Shown: one piece after another, positions 12,402-40,427 of the stretch | How the letters are laid out: each line of letters opens with the position of its first letter | Position numbering within the stretch: the stretch's first letter is position 1 | Assembly: GCA_014728175.1 (NCBI GenBank) | Contig: WJMA01000021.1 | Span: 1-52,590 of the forward strand | Length of the DNA stretch: 52,590 nucleotides | Source: Candidatus Fermentibacterota bacterium | Lineage (GTDB): Bacteria > Fermentibacterota > Fermentibacteria > Fermentibacterales > JCC-6 | Direction: 5' to 3' | Notes under the pieces: generated by a model | Told to the model about the DNA's origin: nothing | What the model saw: the letters and a program-made list of their open reading frames with translations, nothing else | The model's database searches: none | Translations under genes and position numbers: made by a program

Positions 12402-13945
12402 CGATCGAACCTCATAAGAATCCTGATGGGGCGCGGGCAGGTGTCAACCAGAACGTTCTCCCCCATCTCGGTTCTTCGCCATTGAAGCGATTCCGAGCCG
12501 GCCGCTTCCGGATATACCGGGAAGAGCCACCTCCGTTCGAATTGGCTCTCCATCTCCACCGAGAGGTCCCAGTCCATACCCGGAGCCAGAAGGTACGGAC
12601 CGTCCGATAGCGGAAGCCTGCCCTCGGCCCGTACCGTGGCCGGCGTGGACAGGTCGAAGAGGTCCGAGACCTGCAGGCTCTCGACCGCGGCCACCGACCC
12701 GCTGTGCCACATCCAGACCGCCAGAGCGGTAACCGCTTCGTCCAGGCTCAGGCCGGCCAGCTTTCTTCTGAGCAGCATATCGAAGTATCCCCTGCAGGCC
12801 AAACTCAAATCAAAGCTACCGGTCGAGGGATCGAGCCGCCACTCCTCCCGGCAGGTGTTCTCGAAGGCCGGGTTCGGTTCCATGGACAGCAGGGCATCGC
12901 GCTCGGTATCCAGCAACCATAGTCCCGAGGGCCTGTGCACGTAATCGGCCTCCGTAAGATAGGCGGAGGGCTCCACCAGTATCTCCCGACCGTCGGTCGT
13001 GAGTACCCTGACCAGCATCCGGTCCCAGCCCGTGGGAACGGGCAGGGCCGGCCGGGAATCCCTGGCCGGCAGCAAGCGTGGGCTCAACCCCAGCTCCCGA
13101 CATATGCCGACCATGACCACGGCCATCTCCAGGGGGGTGGCCTTCCTGGAGTCCAGGATCTCCTGCAGGGGCCTGACCGTAACCATACGCAGGGGATTCA
13201 GCTCCGGGTCGGGCTGGAAGCTCTCCGTGAGAAGCGTACGAGCTCTCAGCACCATGGATCTTCCATCGGGACCGTAGGAGGAGGCTGCCAGCGCCGCGGC
13301 CCGCAGGTCTGGTGGAAACGGTGGCTCGGTGGCCTCGTCCGCCTCCCGCAGCAGCATGTCTCCCAGAGCTTCCCACGAGGCTATCGAGCTAACCCATAAC
13401 GTCGAGGAAGGGTTCTGCGCGCGCAAGACGAGGGTACCTTCGGCTTCCTCGGATACGTATCCCTCGCCCCGCCATTCCAGGCCCGGGGGAGGATCGTGGA
13501 TGAATATCCTCACCGTGTCCACGTCCACCGTCCGGGGCTCGAAGAGCAGCCAGGGACCCTTCTCGTAAAGCCTTCCCCAGTCCTTTCTCAGTATCGTGTA
13601 ATCGATCGCCGAACCCGGTACCGCCCCGGGAAAGGCAACGGACAGACACCTGGGATAACCGCCCCCGCCGTGGAGGGTGTCCACCGCCCAGGACGGCACT
13701 TCCGCCTCCTCTCCCGAGGGAGGGGCGACCGATGCCCCCAGGAGCCGCACCGATTGGTACGAAGGATCGTAGTTCTGCCGTAGCCGTCGGAGAAGGCCGT
13801 TGTCCCCGATTATGCCCCCGACGTGAATCTTCCGTAGAAGGGTGTCCCCGCTGGTCCAGAGCTCGGATTCGTAATTCGTCATCCTGGAAGGCGGGGCGGC
13901 GGCCAGAACCGCGACCCAGAGTAGAAGAAGGCCCCAGAGCCTCAT
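12398..13945 (-). CDS. Transglutaminase-fold secreted protein lacking the catalytic triad
   Basis: 515 residues with a signal peptide (MRLWGLLLLWVAVLAAAPPS). The layout follows the next gene upstream (13942-15759), a DUF3857/transglutaminase-core protein. Aligning the core by eye, the catalytic Cys-His-Asp of that neighbour correspond here to Pro271 (RKATPLEMAVV), Arg309 (WDRMLVRV) and Glu325 (ILVEPSAY). All three are gone while the surrounding helices and strands are retained. I read it as a non-catalytic paralogue, possibly a binding or scaffolding partner. It is coupled by ATGA to the active copy upstream and to the GT-C gene downstream. Confidence 0.6.
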   Translation of the reverse strand: MRLWGLLLLWVAVLAAAPPSRMTNYESELWTSGDTLLRKIHVGGIIGDNGLLRRLRQNYDPSYQSVRLLGASVAPPSGEEAEVPSWAVDTLHGGGGYPRCLSVAFPGAVPGSAIDYTILRKDWGRLYEKGPWLLFEPRTVDVDTVRIFIHDPPPGLEWRGEGYVSEEAEGTLVLRAQNPSSTLWVSSIASWEALGDMLLREADEATEPPFPPDLRAAALAASSYGPDGRSMVLRARTLLTESFQPDPELNPLRMVTVRPLQEILDSRKATPLEMAVVMVGICRELGLSPRLLPARDSRPALPVPTGWDRMLVRVLTTDGREILVEPSAYLTEADYVHRPSGLWLLDTERDALLSMEPNPAFENTCREEWRLDPSTGSFDLSLACRGYFDMLLRRKLAGLSLDEAVTALAVWMWHSGSVAAVESLQVSDLFDLSTPATVRAEGRLPLSDGPYLLAPGMDWDLSVEMESQFERRWLFPVYPEAAGSESLQWRRTEMGENVLVDTCPRPIRILMRFDR

Positions 13946-15759
13946 GGTAGCCCCAGGATCCTTACGGCGGGGCTGCTTCTGGCCAGCAGAGCGTCCAATA
14001 TCCTGGCTACTCTAAGAGAGTCGGGATATGCGGGACCTATGGAGCAACGCTGGACCAGGATCAGGGTATCCGACCGGGCATGGGCCCGAGACTCGAAGGT
14101 ACCCGCGGACAGGGTTTCGGGAGGCCGGTATCCTTCCGGCAGGCCGTATAGGCTAAGGGTGAATTTCTCGTTGATGGGGGGCTGCAGAAGCAGCTCGGTG
14201 TAATCCAGGTACGTACATAGCAGCAGAACCGCGTTGCGGGTACCCAGAGGGTTCAGCTCCGAGATACCGGGTAGTAGAACCTCCATGCCTTCGCCGGGAG
14301 AGGGAAGGGACGGAAGTGACCAACGCAGCCTGCCCCGGGCGGTCATTCCCCCGCCGGCTCCCGGCGGGCTGGCAAGGACCAGCGAGCCCCGGTCATCGGC
14401 GGAGAGATACGCCCGGAGAAACTCCAGGAAGCGCTCCTCCCCCAAACGCTGCAGTATTCCGGCGAAGACCTGATCCACGGCTCCTGAGGCGCTAACGACT
14501 ACCTCGCCCTCCATCGTGAGGCCATCGTTACTCAGGCTTCCCTCGAAGACGACGGTCATGCTGTCACCCCTAATCGGGTCGGGAACCCTGTGCAGCTCCG
14601 TCCCCCGGGGAGAGAGAGCAAGGTACCTCCTCCCCCTCATGCTCATCGGCAAATCCGCGGAGACCTCCAGGGAAGGGTCGATGATCCTGATCCCGCCTTC
14701 CGGGCCCGTCAGGGCCACCAGCATGTGGTTGAAGCTTCTGCTTCCCACCAGGTCGTCCAGATCGTGGGACGTGTTGCACAGGGCGAGCGAGGCCCGGTGG
14801 CCGGCCGCTCTCAGAAGCCAGGTCAGAAGGACTGCCACGTCCCTGCATACCCCCGAACTACCGGCCAGGGTCTCCACCGGCGGCCTGGGGGAGTAGCCGG
14901 GGTCGTCTCCCCAGTCCGAGCCCAGATAATCGATCGACTCCCTCACCCATCGAGTAAGCCGGTCGGGGTCGGTTCCCACCGCGGCGAGCAGGGAGTCCGC
15001 GGTCCGGCGTCCCCGGGAGGGGTCGCAGAAGGAGTCCAGAGCCGACCACAGCTCCCAACTTGCCTCCGCCGGCCGATGCGAGGAGAGAACCACTCTGGGC
15101 GCCCTCTCCCAGACAGGTCTACTGAGGGGCGCCCTGTCGTAGGCTCTGCCCCCCTCCCGCCGCCATACGAACCTGGTTCGGTCGCCTTCCTCGATTATCC
15201 GGGGCGGGTCGAACCCTTCCGAAACGTAGAAGAGGCCCCTCTCGGAGGGCCAGTCCACGGTTAGAACCGAACGGGCGACACTGTCCCTGCCGGCCCCGAA
15301 GAAGGAGTAGGAGTACAGGTCGGCTAGGGGAAGGCTCTCAATGCTCCTGACGACCTCCAGCAGAACGGTATCTCCCACTTCCAGGCCGGGAAGGTCTACG
15401 GTGAGCTCCCTCAAACTGCTCTCCAGCCGCCCAGAGGAAGAAAGAGCCCGATGGGGTCCCTCCCTGACCTCCGCCCTCTGGTCTGCCCTTCCCGGACGCC
15501 AGTGGCGCACCTCGGCCGTTCTCAGCAAAAGCTCCTCCCCGCCCTCCCTGTAGCCCAGGGATATTCGGGAGAATCTGGCCACGCCCCTGCCGTTCAAGGG
15601 TACGATTCGCTGCCGGGTGGTCTCCAGATAGCGGGGTCGGGTAGATAGCTCCGTAAGCTGGGAGGAATCCGGGTCTGCGGTGAGACATACCTCATGGCGC
15701 AGGAAGACTGCGTCGGTAAGTAAGAGTGATGCGATCAGGACCGCCGGAACGGAAGTCAG
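13942..15759 (-). CDS. Secreted DUF3857/transglutaminase-like protein, CTG start
   Basis: 605 residues: signal peptide (MTSVPAVLIASLLLTDAVFL), an N-terminal beta-rich DUF3857-like region (about 30-250), then a transglutaminase core with a complete triad. The triad is Cys305 in SSGVCRDVAVL, His345 in FNHMLVAL and Asp361 in IIDPS. A beta-rich C-terminus follows. No ATG, GTG or TTG precedes the signal peptide after the surE stop codon. A CTG at 15759 overlaps that stop (CTGA) and has GGAGGA six bases upstream, so CTG is the likely start. The next in-frame GTG would delete the signal peptide. Upstream in-frame starts would run about 75 residues through surE with unlikely Arg/Gly-rich sequence. 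Probably a periplasmic or outer-surface cysteine peptidase or transglutaminase-like enzyme; substrate unknown. Confidence 0.75.
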   Translation of the reverse strand: MTSVPAVLIASLLLTDAVFLRHEVCLTADPDSSQLTELSTRPRYLETTRQRIVPLNGRGVARFSRISLGYREGGEELLLRTAEVRHWRPGRADQRAEVREGPHRALSSSGRLESSLRELTVDLPGLEVGDTVLLEVVRSIESLPLADLYSYSFFGAGRDSVARSVLTVDWPSERGLFYVSEGFDPPRIIEEGDRTRFVWRREGGRAYDRAPLSRPVWERAPRVVLSSHRPAEASWELWSALDSFCDPSRGRRTADSLLAAVGTDPDRLTRWVRESIDYLGSDWGDDPGYSPRPPVETLAGSSGVCRDVAVLLTWLLRAAGHRASLALCNTSHDLDDLVGSRSFNHMLVALTGPEGGIRIIDPSLEVSADLPMSMRGRRYLALSPRGTELHRVPDPIRGDSMTVVFEGSLSNDGLTMEGEVVVSASGAVDQVFAGILQRLGEERFLEFLRAYLSADDRGSLVLASPPGAGGGMTARGRLRWSLPSLPSPGEGMEVLLPGISELNPLGTRNAVLLLCTYLDYTELLLQPPINEKFTLSLYGLPEGYRPPETLSAGTFESRAHARSDTLILVQRCSIGPAYPDSLRVARILDALLARSSPAVRILGLP

Positions 15760-36423: not shown

Positions 36424-37785
36424 CTATCTCACGTATCCCAGATCCTCCAGGATCGGGTCTATCGTTTCCTCGTACTCAATGGGTCGGGGCTCGCCCCGGG
36501 GCGGTAAGGCCCAATAATCCATCACCCTCTGCAGCAATTGCTGGTTTACCTCGATGGGCGACTGCTCGTAAGGATCGGAAGATAAGTCAAAGCAAAGCGC
36601 CGTATCGGATTCTGCGAGCCAGATGACCTTCAGAGAGTTAAGCACCCCTCCCGCCATCGGCTCGACGCTCCACAGCAGACCGCTGGAAGGCACGAATCGG
36701 TTCCGGGGCGGAGGACGTCCCTGGTAGTCCTCGACCGGATCCGGGAGCTGGAATCCGCAGGCGTTGTGAACCATGGGCAGAACGTCCAGTTGGCAAACGG
36801 GGAGCTCGCTCACCTCGTCTCTGGAGATGCCCGGGCCGCTTACCACCAACGGTACGTTCAAAAGCTCCTGGTAGAGGGTATGGCCGTGCTCCATCCCCCC
36901 GTGGTCGAAGAACTCTTCCCCATGATCGGCGGTGACCATAACCAGGGTGTTCCCGCCGTATCCCCGCTTTCTCAGCTCGGAGAGCAGCCTCGCGGCCTGA
37001 GTGTCGGTGTAGGCCAGCTCGCCGTCGTACAGGTTGATCAGGTTGATTACGTCCTCCTCCTCCGGAACCACCTCGCCAATGTTTACCGCTACCAGTTGCC
37101 CCGAGCTTCCCCAGTCGCTGTCGTACTCCCCCTGGTAGGCCGGGCTGGTGAACAACGTGTCGTAGGGCGGCGGAGGGTCGTAAGGGAGATGGGGGTCGTA
37201 AAGATGCATCAGGATGAAGAACCGGTCTCCGTCCTTCAGGGTATCCATCCATTCCAGGCAGTCGTCCACGGTCTCCCCCGCCTTTCTGATCCCCAAGTCC
37301 TTTACCAGTCCCTCGCAGTCGAAGTGCTCGAATCCCTGGTGGAAGCCGAAGCCCGAGTTAAGGTAGACCACGTTGAGGAAGGCGGCCGTCCGGTAACCGT
37401 GTTGGGACATCGTACGGGGCAGGTAGGGCAGCTCGGGGTCCAGCCCGTAGTAGATGTCGTTCCTCTTCCCCGCCATGTGAAGGCGGGGCGGAAGGCCGGT
37501 GAGTATGCTGGCCACGGCCGGCAGGGTCCAGGAGCTCTGGGATTGCATTCTGGAGTACACAATGCCCTCGTCGGCCAGACTGTCCAGGTGCGGCGTGGTG
37601 TTCCGGGGGTAGCCGTAGCAGCCCATGTGATCGGCCCTGAATGTGTCTATTACGATCAACAGCACGTTGGGCGGCTCCGAAGGACCCGGTCCGCCGCAAC
37701 CGATGGGCCACGCCAGGATCAGGAGGAGAGTGAAGAGAATCCGGACGAGAGCCCGGGGGCTAAATTCGGAAAGGGAAACGATCAG
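36424..37785 (-). CDS. Sulfatase-fold lipoprotein (alkaline phosphatase superfamily), CTG start
   Basis: 453 residues if started at CTG 37785. This gives a lipoprotein signal peptide MIVSLSEFSPRALVRILFTL with lipobox LAWPIGC (Cys30). The domain starts NVLLIVIDTFRADHMGCYGY (Asp47, Asp52 metal ligands) and continues with TADHGEEFFDHGG. The nucleophile position reads SSWTLPAVASILTG, with Thr87 where true sulfatases have Cys/Ser-x-Pro-x-Arg. It is therefore probably a phosphohydrolase or phosphotransferase rather than an FGly sulfatase. No ATG/GTG/TTG lies before the signal peptide. CTG overlaps the polA stop (CTGA) with GGAGG seven bases upstream. The GTG at 37665 would remove the export signal. 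Confidence 0.82.
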   Translation of the reverse strand: MIVSLSEFSPRALVRILFTLLLILAWPIGCGGPGPSEPPNVLLIVIDTFRADHMGCYGYPRNTTPHLDSLADEGIVYSRMQSQSSWTLPAVASILTGLPPRLHMAGKRNDIYYGLDPELPYLPRTMSQHGYRTAAFLNVVYLNSGFGFHQGFEHFDCEGLVKDLGIRKAGETVDDCLEWMDTLKDGDRFFILMHLYDPHLPYDPPPPYDTLFTSPAYQGEYDSDWGSSGQLVAVNIGEVVPEEEDVINLINLYDGELAYTDTQAARLLSELRKRGYGGNTLVMVTADHGEEFFDHGGMEHGHTLYQELLNVPLVVSGPGISRDEVSELPVCQLDVLPMVHNACGFQLPDPVEDYQGRPPPRNRFVPSSGLLWSVEPMAGGVLNSLKVIWLAESDTALCFDLSSDPYEQSPIEVNQQLLQRVMDYWALPPRGEPRPIEYEETIDPILEDLGYVR

Positions 37786-40427
37786 TGTTGAGCCTCCAGC
37801 CAGTTGCCGCCGACCCCGGTCTCAACTTCCAGGTCGACGTCCAGGTCGACGGCGTTCTCCATCTCCTCGGTTATAAGCCCTGCGGCCTCCGTCGCCAACG
37901 TCTCCGGAACCGACGCCACCAGCTCGTCGTGGACCTGCAGGACCAGCCCCGCCCGGGGAATCTCCCGCCGCAGCCTGTCGTGGACCCTCAGCATGGCCAG
38001 CTTCATCACGTCCGCGGCCGAGCCCTGTACGGTGGTATTCACCGCCATCCTCTCCAGAGCCTTCCTCCTGCTTCCCCCGGCCGTAGACAGCTCGGTGAAG
38101 TCCCTTCTCCGGCCAAGTATGGTCCGGGTCTCGCCCTCCGCCTCCGCCTCTTCGACAGTTCGATTGAAGAAACTCTCCACCTCCGGGTACCTCTCGAAGT
38201 AGCGGCGGATGATCCCGGAAGCCTCTTCCCGGGTCATACCCAGCCTCTGGGACAGGCCGTACGGGCTTATGCCGTAGACTATGGAGAAGTTAACCTCCTT
38301 GGCCTTTCGCCTGTGCTCCGGGGTGGAGGCGCCGAATACGGCCTCTGCGGTGAGGACATGGACGTCCCGGCCCGTACGGTAGGCCTCGCTGAGCGGACCG
38401 TCTTCGGAGAGATGGGCCAGCACCCTCAGCTCGATCTGGGAATAATCGGCTGATACGAACACCTCCCTCTCCCTCGGCGGTCGGAAGCACTTCCTTATCA
38501 TCCTGCCCCGGTCCGTCCTGATGGGGATGTTCTGGAGGTTGGGATCGCTGGAGCTCAGTCGACCGGTGGCGGTCACCGCCTGATTGAAGCTGGTGTGAAT
38601 CAGCCCCGTCCTGGCGCATACGAACTCGGGCAGCCGGTGTACGTAGGTGGAAAGAAGCTTGGATACCTCCCGGTGCTCTATTACCAGGTCCACGAACTCG
38701 TGCTCTCCCCTGAGGGCCAGGAGCACGCTCATGCTGGAGGAGGGGGCTCCGCCGGGAGTCTTTCTCACCGGGTCCATGCCCAGGGTATCGAAGAGAGCGG
38801 TGGAAACCTGGGAGGGGCTGTTCAGGTTGATGCTTCCTCCGACCATCTCCGAGGCTCTCGCCGTCAGATCGGATAGCCTGCCGGAGAAATCCGATTCCAG
38901 CTCCTCCAAAGACCCCACGTCCAGAGAGACCCCGCGCCTCTCCATGCTCAGCAGCACCGGGACCAGCGGAAGCTCCAACTCCCGGTAGATCCGCCGCAGG
39001 TCCGGATCTCGTTCGAGGGAATCCGAAAGCAGGGAATGAAGCCTCCAGGCGGCGCTGGCGTCCTTGCAGCAGTAATCGGCAACGTCGGAGACGGGCAGCT
39101 CGGCCAGCGTTTTCTCCTCCCCCACCACGTCGTCGTAGCTCTCCAGGCTCTCACCCAGGTATAGCCTGGCCAGAGTGCCCAGGGATCGTCTCCTGTTCTG
39201 GGGACGAAGCAGGTAATCCGCCAGGAAGGGATCGCCGGCCACCCTATCCCAGGTTACTCCCAGGTTTCGAAGTATGTGGAGGTCGTACTTGGAGTTCTGG
39301 GCGATCAACGACCTGCCCTCTACCAGCCTTTCCAGGAATGCATGGACCTTCTCCGGTGGTAGAACGGCCTCCCCTGCCAGCGGAACGTACCAGGCCCTCC
39401 CTTCGCCGGCGCATACGGACAGGCCTATCGGGTCGGCATCCATGGGCGAGGTGGACGTGGTCTCGGTATCAACTGCCACCTCGGTCTCGTCCCGCAGCTC
39501 GTTCAGGATATGCTCCAGGTCCTCCCCGGTTCTCACAGTAAGGCAGTCACATTCACTACCCGAAGCGGGGGGAAGCTCACCCAAGAGCTTTCTCATGCCC
39601 AGCCGCTCCAGAAGCCGGGCGGCCTTATCCACCGCGGGGTCGACCGGCTTCAGGGCATCCAATCCCAGGTCTTCGGGAGGCCGGGAACGAAGGGTAACCA
39701 ACCTTCGACTCAGCTCGATGGCCTCCAGGTTCCGTTCCACCTTCGCCCTGATCGAAGGGCGTTCGATATCGTCCAGCGAGGAAAGGAGGTTGTCCAGGCT
39801 TCCGAAGCGATCGAGCAGGCTGAGCGCCGTTTTCTTACCGATTCCCCTGGCTCCGGGCACGTTGTCGGTCGAGTCTCCCACCAGGGCCATATAATCGACG
39901 ATCTGGGAAGCTTCGACACCCACGATCTCCTGGACGTCGTCCGGTCCTATCAGCCTGGCATTCTTTCCCGGTCTGCCGGGCTGGATTACGGTGACCCCGG
40001 GACCTGCCAACTGTAGAAGATCCTTGTCCGAAGACAGGATCAGCACCTCGCCGGCCTTCGCCCGGAGCAACGTGGTCAGAGAGGCTATCAGGTCGTCGGC
40101 CTCCAGTCCCCGACGCTCTATCACCGGACAGCCAAGATAGCTAAGAACCTCCCGGGCCAGTCGGGACTGCTCCCTGATCTCGTCGGGCATTTCGGGTCTG
40201 TTCGCCTTGTATTCCTCGTAGATCTCTTTTCTGAACGAGGGTGCCGGATAGTCGAAGATCGCGCCCAGCAGATCGGGGGAATAGAGGTCCTTATGCCTGA
40301 AGATCTCGGTCAAAAGGTGGTGCAGACCGCTGGTCACTGTTCCGTCCGGTGCTCTCAGCGGACGCTTGATAAGCGCGTAGTGGCCCCTGTAAAGAAGTCC
40401 GAGACAGTCGACCAAAAGTGCTCTCAT
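37782..40427 (-). CDS. polA: DNA polymerase I
   Basis: 881 residues, full three-domain enzyme. The 5' nuclease domain (about 1-290) has MRALLVDCLGLLYRGHYAL and GLEADDLIASL. The 3'-5' exonuclease is apparently active (VAVDTETTS, IAQNSKYDLHIL, VADYCCKDA). The polymerase shows motif A DYSQIELRVLAHLSED, motif B RRKAKEVNFSIVYGISPYGLS and motif C LQVHDELV. ATG at 40427 overlaps the upstream glycosyltransferase stop codon (ATGA). The longer frame upstream is within that gene. It fills gaps in replication and in UvrABC repair. Confidence 0.97.
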   Translation of the reverse strand: MRALLVDCLGLLYRGHYALIKRPLRAPDGTVTSGLHHLLTEIFRHKDLYSPDLLGAIFDYPAPSFRKEIYEEYKANRPEMPDEIREQSRLAREVLSYLGCPVIERRGLEADDLIASLTTLLRAKAGEVLILSSDKDLLQLAGPGVTVIQPGRPGKNARLIGPDDVQEIVGVEASQIVDYMALVGDSTDNVPGARGIGKKTALSLLDRFGSLDNLLSSLDDIERPSIRAKVERNLEAIELSRRLVTLRSRPPEDLGLDALKPVDPAVDKAARLLERLGMRKLLGELPPASGSECDCLTVRTGEDLEHILNELRDETEVAVDTETTSTSPMDADPIGLSVCAGEGRAWYVPLAGEAVLPPEKVHAFLERLVEGRSLIAQNSKYDLHILRNLGVTWDRVAGDPFLADYLLRPQNRRRSLGTLARLYLGESLESYDDVVGEEKTLAELPVSDVADYCCKDASAAWRLHSLLSDSLERDPDLRRIYRELELPLVPVLLSMERRGVSLDVGSLEELESDFSGRLSDLTARASEMVGGSINLNSPSQVSTALFDTLGMDPVRKTPGGAPSSSMSVLLALRGEHEFVDLVIEHREVSKLLSTYVHRLPEFVCARTGLIHTSFNQAVTATGRLSSSDPNLQNIPIRTDRGRMIRKCFRPPREREVFVSADYSQIELRVLAHLSEDGPLSEAYRTGRDVHVLTAEAVFGASTPEHRRKAKEVNFSIVYGISPYGLSQRLGMTREEASGIIRRYFERYPEVESFFNRTVEEAEAEGETRTILGRRRDFTELSTAGGSRRKALERMAVNTTVQGSAADVMKLAMLRVHDRLRREIPRAGLVLQVHDELVASVPETLATEAAGLITEEMENAVDLDVDLEVETGVGGNWLEAQH
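37793..37797 (-). promoter_or_regulatory. Shine-Dalgarno site deciding a CTG start
   Basis: GGAGG within the last codons of polA, seven bases before CTG at 37785. Spacing is optimal for initiation there. No canonical start codon occurs in frame until beyond the lipobox. Confidence 0.65.

Follow-up and report, generated by a model that had tools for sequence, protein, structure and literature searches.

A probable CUG start codon for a sulfatase-fold lipoprotein gene at the polA stop codon of a Candidatus Fermentibacterota genome

CUG accounts for 0.024% of bacterial initiation codons, and in E. coli it directs initiation at 0.86% of the level of AUG (PMC11497404). Reconstructed switches to CUG are few, numbering 2 of 61,358 from AUG and 1 of 2,468 from UUG (PMC5622118), and a selection in mycobacteria gave no enrichment of CTG starts (PMC4633059). 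The locus described here resembles bacterial CUG initiation in that the putative start codon is a near-cognate of AUG, differing at the first position, and would be read by an ordinary initiator tRNA with the help of a Shine-Dalgarno sequence. It also resembles the four-base stop-start overlaps of translationally coupled genes (ATGA, GTGA or TTGA), in which an NTGA sequence is preceded by a Shine-Dalgarno sequence lying inside the upstream gene; it differs from these in that N is C, hence a weak start codon. Unlike CUG initiation as it is known, the candidate cases amount to four genes from roughly one third of a single genome; three of the four lie in CTGA overlaps, and one of them, apbE, is apparently conserved across species and families. 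CUG initiation would here be of a known but rare kind; what would be unusual is that it recurs within a single lineage and seems to be conserved at apbE.

The window, that is the whole stretch of DNA analysed, comprises 52,590 nucleotides of contig WJMA01000021.1 from a Candidatus Fermentibacterota bacterium. On its minus strand lies polA (37782..40427), encoding a DNA polymerase I with the Pfam domains 5_3_exonuc_N, DNA_pol_A_exo1 and DNA_pol_A, and ending in a TGA stop codon at 37784-37782. The following frame on the same strand is open from 37821 to its stop at 36424 (465 codons) and encodes a sulfatase-fold protein. A scan of this open frame back to 37821 found no ATG, GTG or TTG 5' of GTG 37665 (37663..37665), as the first-pass annotation had stated. 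The polA/sulfatase junction reads GGCTGGAGGCTCAACACTGATCGTT, in which GGAGG (37793..37797), situated in the final polA codons, is followed by 7 bases and then by CTGA. Also as first described, the proposed start CTG (37783..37785) overlaps the polA TGA, the bases TG of the start being shared with the stop. The next codon, ATC (37780..37782), lies 10 nt from the GGAGG. From the CTG the product would be a lipoprotein of 453 aa (36424..37785), and between this codon and the conserved NVLLIVID strand there is a signal peptide with PIGC at its end; a further 12 codons are open 5' of the CTG. The first base of the CTG is the wobble base of CAC (His), the last codon of polA, so that only C or T is possible there without altering the polymerase. 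GTG 37665 was rejected as a start, as it lies inside the conserved first β-strand, NVLLIVID, and its use would remove an export signal common to all homologues. Across 834 kb of this genome, AGGAG, GGAGG or GAGGT occurs at start-like spacing before 4.4% of the 13,083 codons located 5' of first canonical starts; a Shine-Dalgarno sequence alone is therefore weak evidence, and the comparison with relatives carries the case.

The protein matches the Pfam Sulfatase domain (PF00884) with an E value of 2.7e-46, and the closest proteins of known structure are arylsulfatases and phosphonate monoester hydrolases. The residues D53, T93, D293, H294 and H306 (numbered from 37803) are invariant in 39/39 sequences. 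The Pfam match together with the conserved metal ligands places it in the alkaline phosphatase/sulfatase fold, and it shares with that superfamily the Asp/His metal ligands and the nucleophile position. At the latter, it differs from the C/S-x-P-x-R signature of formylglycine (type I) sulfatases, which is absent, in having Thr in the motif WTLPA in place of Cys or Ser; this Thr is likewise found in all 39 sequences. A Thr nucleophile is found in phosphotransferases of the alkaline phosphatase superfamily. We therefore set aside a formylglycine sulfatase, and the conserved residues suggest that the protein is likely to be a phospho- or related ester hydrolase or transferase. The family with the invariant Thr (WTLP) numbers roughly a dozen copies in the genome. 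The signal peptide and lipobox A-W-P-I-G-C span 37696..37785, with the Cys at 37698-37696. The lipobox had initially been called perfect; the n-region, the hydrophobic core, the Gly at -1 and the Cys are all there, but the -3 position is occupied by Pro, against the consensus [LVI][ASTVI][GAS]C. In homologues this position is mostly hydrophobic or small (L, T, A, S or V), and the Cys is kept in all those read.

To place the junction in a comparative context, homologues of the sulfatase-fold protein were searched for in 60 related genomes and those of polA in 41, none of them of the same genus as the genome of the window. A polA relative is present in 40 of the 41, and the order polA followed by sulfatase is widely kept among the related genomes searched. 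The first-pass annotation had proposed that homologues lacking any signal peptide would speak against the upstream start; in every homologue and every paralogue from the same genome whose N-terminus was read, a signal peptide with a Cys is present. It had also asked for a canonical start at the same place. In at least seven relatives an ATG is found one codon downstream: CTGATG or TTGATG stands at the polA junction of L131, L132, L133, L134, L138, L143 and L146, the last being counted among the TGATG junctions with its downstream frame unconfirmed as a sulfatase. The same TTGATG arrangement occurs in L030. In these YTGATG relatives the ATG is the canonical start and overlaps the polA stop by one base, whereas the window has CTGATC, with ATC 37782 where they have ATG. 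The orthologue in genome G002 has the junction GGAGGCTCAGCATTGAGA, which contains no ATG, the next codon being AGA; here a TTG stands exactly at the position of the CTG, and a GGAGG precedes it with the same 7-nt spacing. These starts at the polA junction support the earlier statement that a gene caller limited to ATG, GTG and TTG would miss the export signal. In a phylogeny built from the C-terminal part of polA, rooted at the midpoint and with only moderately supported deep forks, YTGATG is found both in the clade of genus g2 and in G040 of another family, and because of this distribution it is plausibly the ancestral state, with the ATC of the window derived.

The CTG thus lies at Shine-Dalgarno spacing, in the place where orthologues have their start, and we consider it probable, at about 0.72, that translation of the exported lipoprotein gene after polA begins at CUG 37785. 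The comparison accordingly upholds the start codon first proposed, though it leaves AUC 37782 as a live alternative. This codon, as the direct descendant of the ATG of the relatives, would have in its favour that it occupies the exact site of that ATG in at least seven of them. We regard it as unlikely, and prefer the CTG for three reasons: in G002, which also has no ATG, a canonical TTG occupies the -4 codon; the Shine-Dalgarno spacing is 7 nt for the CTG and 10 nt for the ATC; and it is CTG, not ATC, that turns up again at further starts of the genome. Several observations were counted against a CUG start, namely the Pro at -3 of the lipobox, the ordinary stem of the initiator tRNA, the lack of a genome-wide excess of CTG starts, the reported weakness of CUG initiation and rarity of AUG-to-CUG switches (PMC11497404, PMC5622118), and the fact that the genomes compared all belong to other genera, none being a close relative.

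It is improbable that the start was simply lost, so that the gene is a recent pseudogene or yields no more than a shortened cytoplasmic protein from GTG 37665. No canonical start precedes that codon, and about 11 other sulfatase-fold genes in the genome could make this one dispensable; however, 459 codons run without a stop or frameshift, the invariant residues are intact, and the GTG lies within the conserved first strand, so that the export signal of all homologues would go. Scarcely more credible, and if anything less so, is the idea that base 37780 is miscalled in the consensus, or is peculiar to the strain, and conceals a true ATG. Changing one base, ATC to ATG, would give back the arrangement of the relatives, and the assembly is fragmented into 67 contigs, but one error cannot account for the candidate CTG starts in three further genes of the genome, one of which is conserved in other genomes. 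The 16S gene is incomplete in this assembly. A -1 frameshift at the end of polA, producing a fusion with no separate start, would accord with the 12 open codons 5' of the CTG, but is very improbable, as it would put a signal peptide inside a fusion without reason, relatives have a plain ATG here, and some of the apbE cases have only two or three open codons 5' of the CTG.

The second case in the window is a gene for a DUF3857/transglutaminase-like exported protein of 605 aa (13942..15759, minus strand). Its putative CTGA start lies 7 nt after a GGAGG at 15771-15767, and no canonical start follows for 54 codons; among relatives, an ATG is found at the place of the CTG in L157 and L158, and a TTG two codons on in several members of genus g2. 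Elsewhere in the genome, an ABC transporter ATPase gene (C12:45419; L215:5419-6078, plus strand) has a CTG after a near-perfect Shine-Dalgarno sequence, GGAGGTGATCC-CTG, and its orthologue in G003 (L220, 53% identical) has TTG at the aligned position. The fourth gene, of the ApbE family (C51:2499; L199:1468-2499, minus strand), has a CTGA start. A lipoprotein-like ORF at C65:75617 (L182:14808-15617, minus strand) has no canonical start for 30 codons and offers a candidate ATA or CTG start.

The apbE junction could be followed across several groups. In genus g2 it carries GTG or TTG in NTGA overlaps, or an ATG, while in genus g5 it carries CTG in 11/11 readable species, most of whose apbE genes offer no canonical start as an alternative ahead of the membrane segment; CTG is also found in G037 and G040 of another family (CTGA loci L282, L293, L295-L300, L302, L303, L305, L306, L312 and L314). 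The C of this CTG is the third base of the last codon of the upstream gene (CGC, CTC or AGC) and is invariant in all ten g5 species whose upstream gene could be aligned. Over the 40 codons of that gene compared in these ten species, two third positions are invariant, none of the 14 fourfold columns is invariant, and C makes up 25% of third positions. This is suggestive of selection for C, in a count that leaves out shared ancestry, and a constraint from stop context or RNA structure would look the same. The apbE gene, with CTG in members of a second genus and of a second family as well, would be the clearest case for a selected CUG, although A, G or T at this base would be mostly synonymous in the upstream gene.

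Ab initio scans of 452-834 kb of the genome found no excess of Shine-Dalgarno-preceded CTG over other codons (1.34-fold, 11 cases); a free 64-codon EM start scan over-fitted rare codons and was not relied on. Genome-wide use of CUG was ruled out on these scans, which therefore point to a small gene set and not to a changed code. An altered initiator tRNA was likewise ruled out, the GGGCTCATAACCC stem being ordinary. In the 452 kb sample, which excludes the apbE case at C51:2499, CTGA with no canonical start within 16 codons occurs only in the two window cases; the other stop-start overlaps there are ATGA (45), TTGA (15) and GTGA (14).

Taken together, these comparisons suggest the following course of events. 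The related order would ancestrally have had YTGATG at the polA junction; in the present genome the ATG would have become ATC, and the CTG at the -4 codon would have taken over, as the TTG would have done in G002. The GGAGG in the last polA codons would hold ribosomes ending polA at UGA over the junction, where fMet-tRNA would pair with the overlapping CUG with a first-position mismatch. The outcome would be low, polA-coupled synthesis of the sulfatase-fold protein, and the product would probably be exported and lipidated at Cys30. More tentatively, and with a likelihood that we place somewhat below even, CUG may be kept by selection in this order as a weak start at CTGA overlaps, keeping the coupled synthesis of certain exported or membrane-anchored proteins low, with the sulfatase-fold gene as one recent recruit.

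Gene callers restricted to ATG, GTG and TTG would cut the protein past its export signal and thereby misassign a lipoprotein to the cytoplasm, and the supposed extreme rarity of bacterial CUG starts may in part be such a blind spot of annotation. If the reading holds, a CUG retained from species to species, where the upstream gene would let its first base vary, would suggest that weak initiation can itself be a selectable property.
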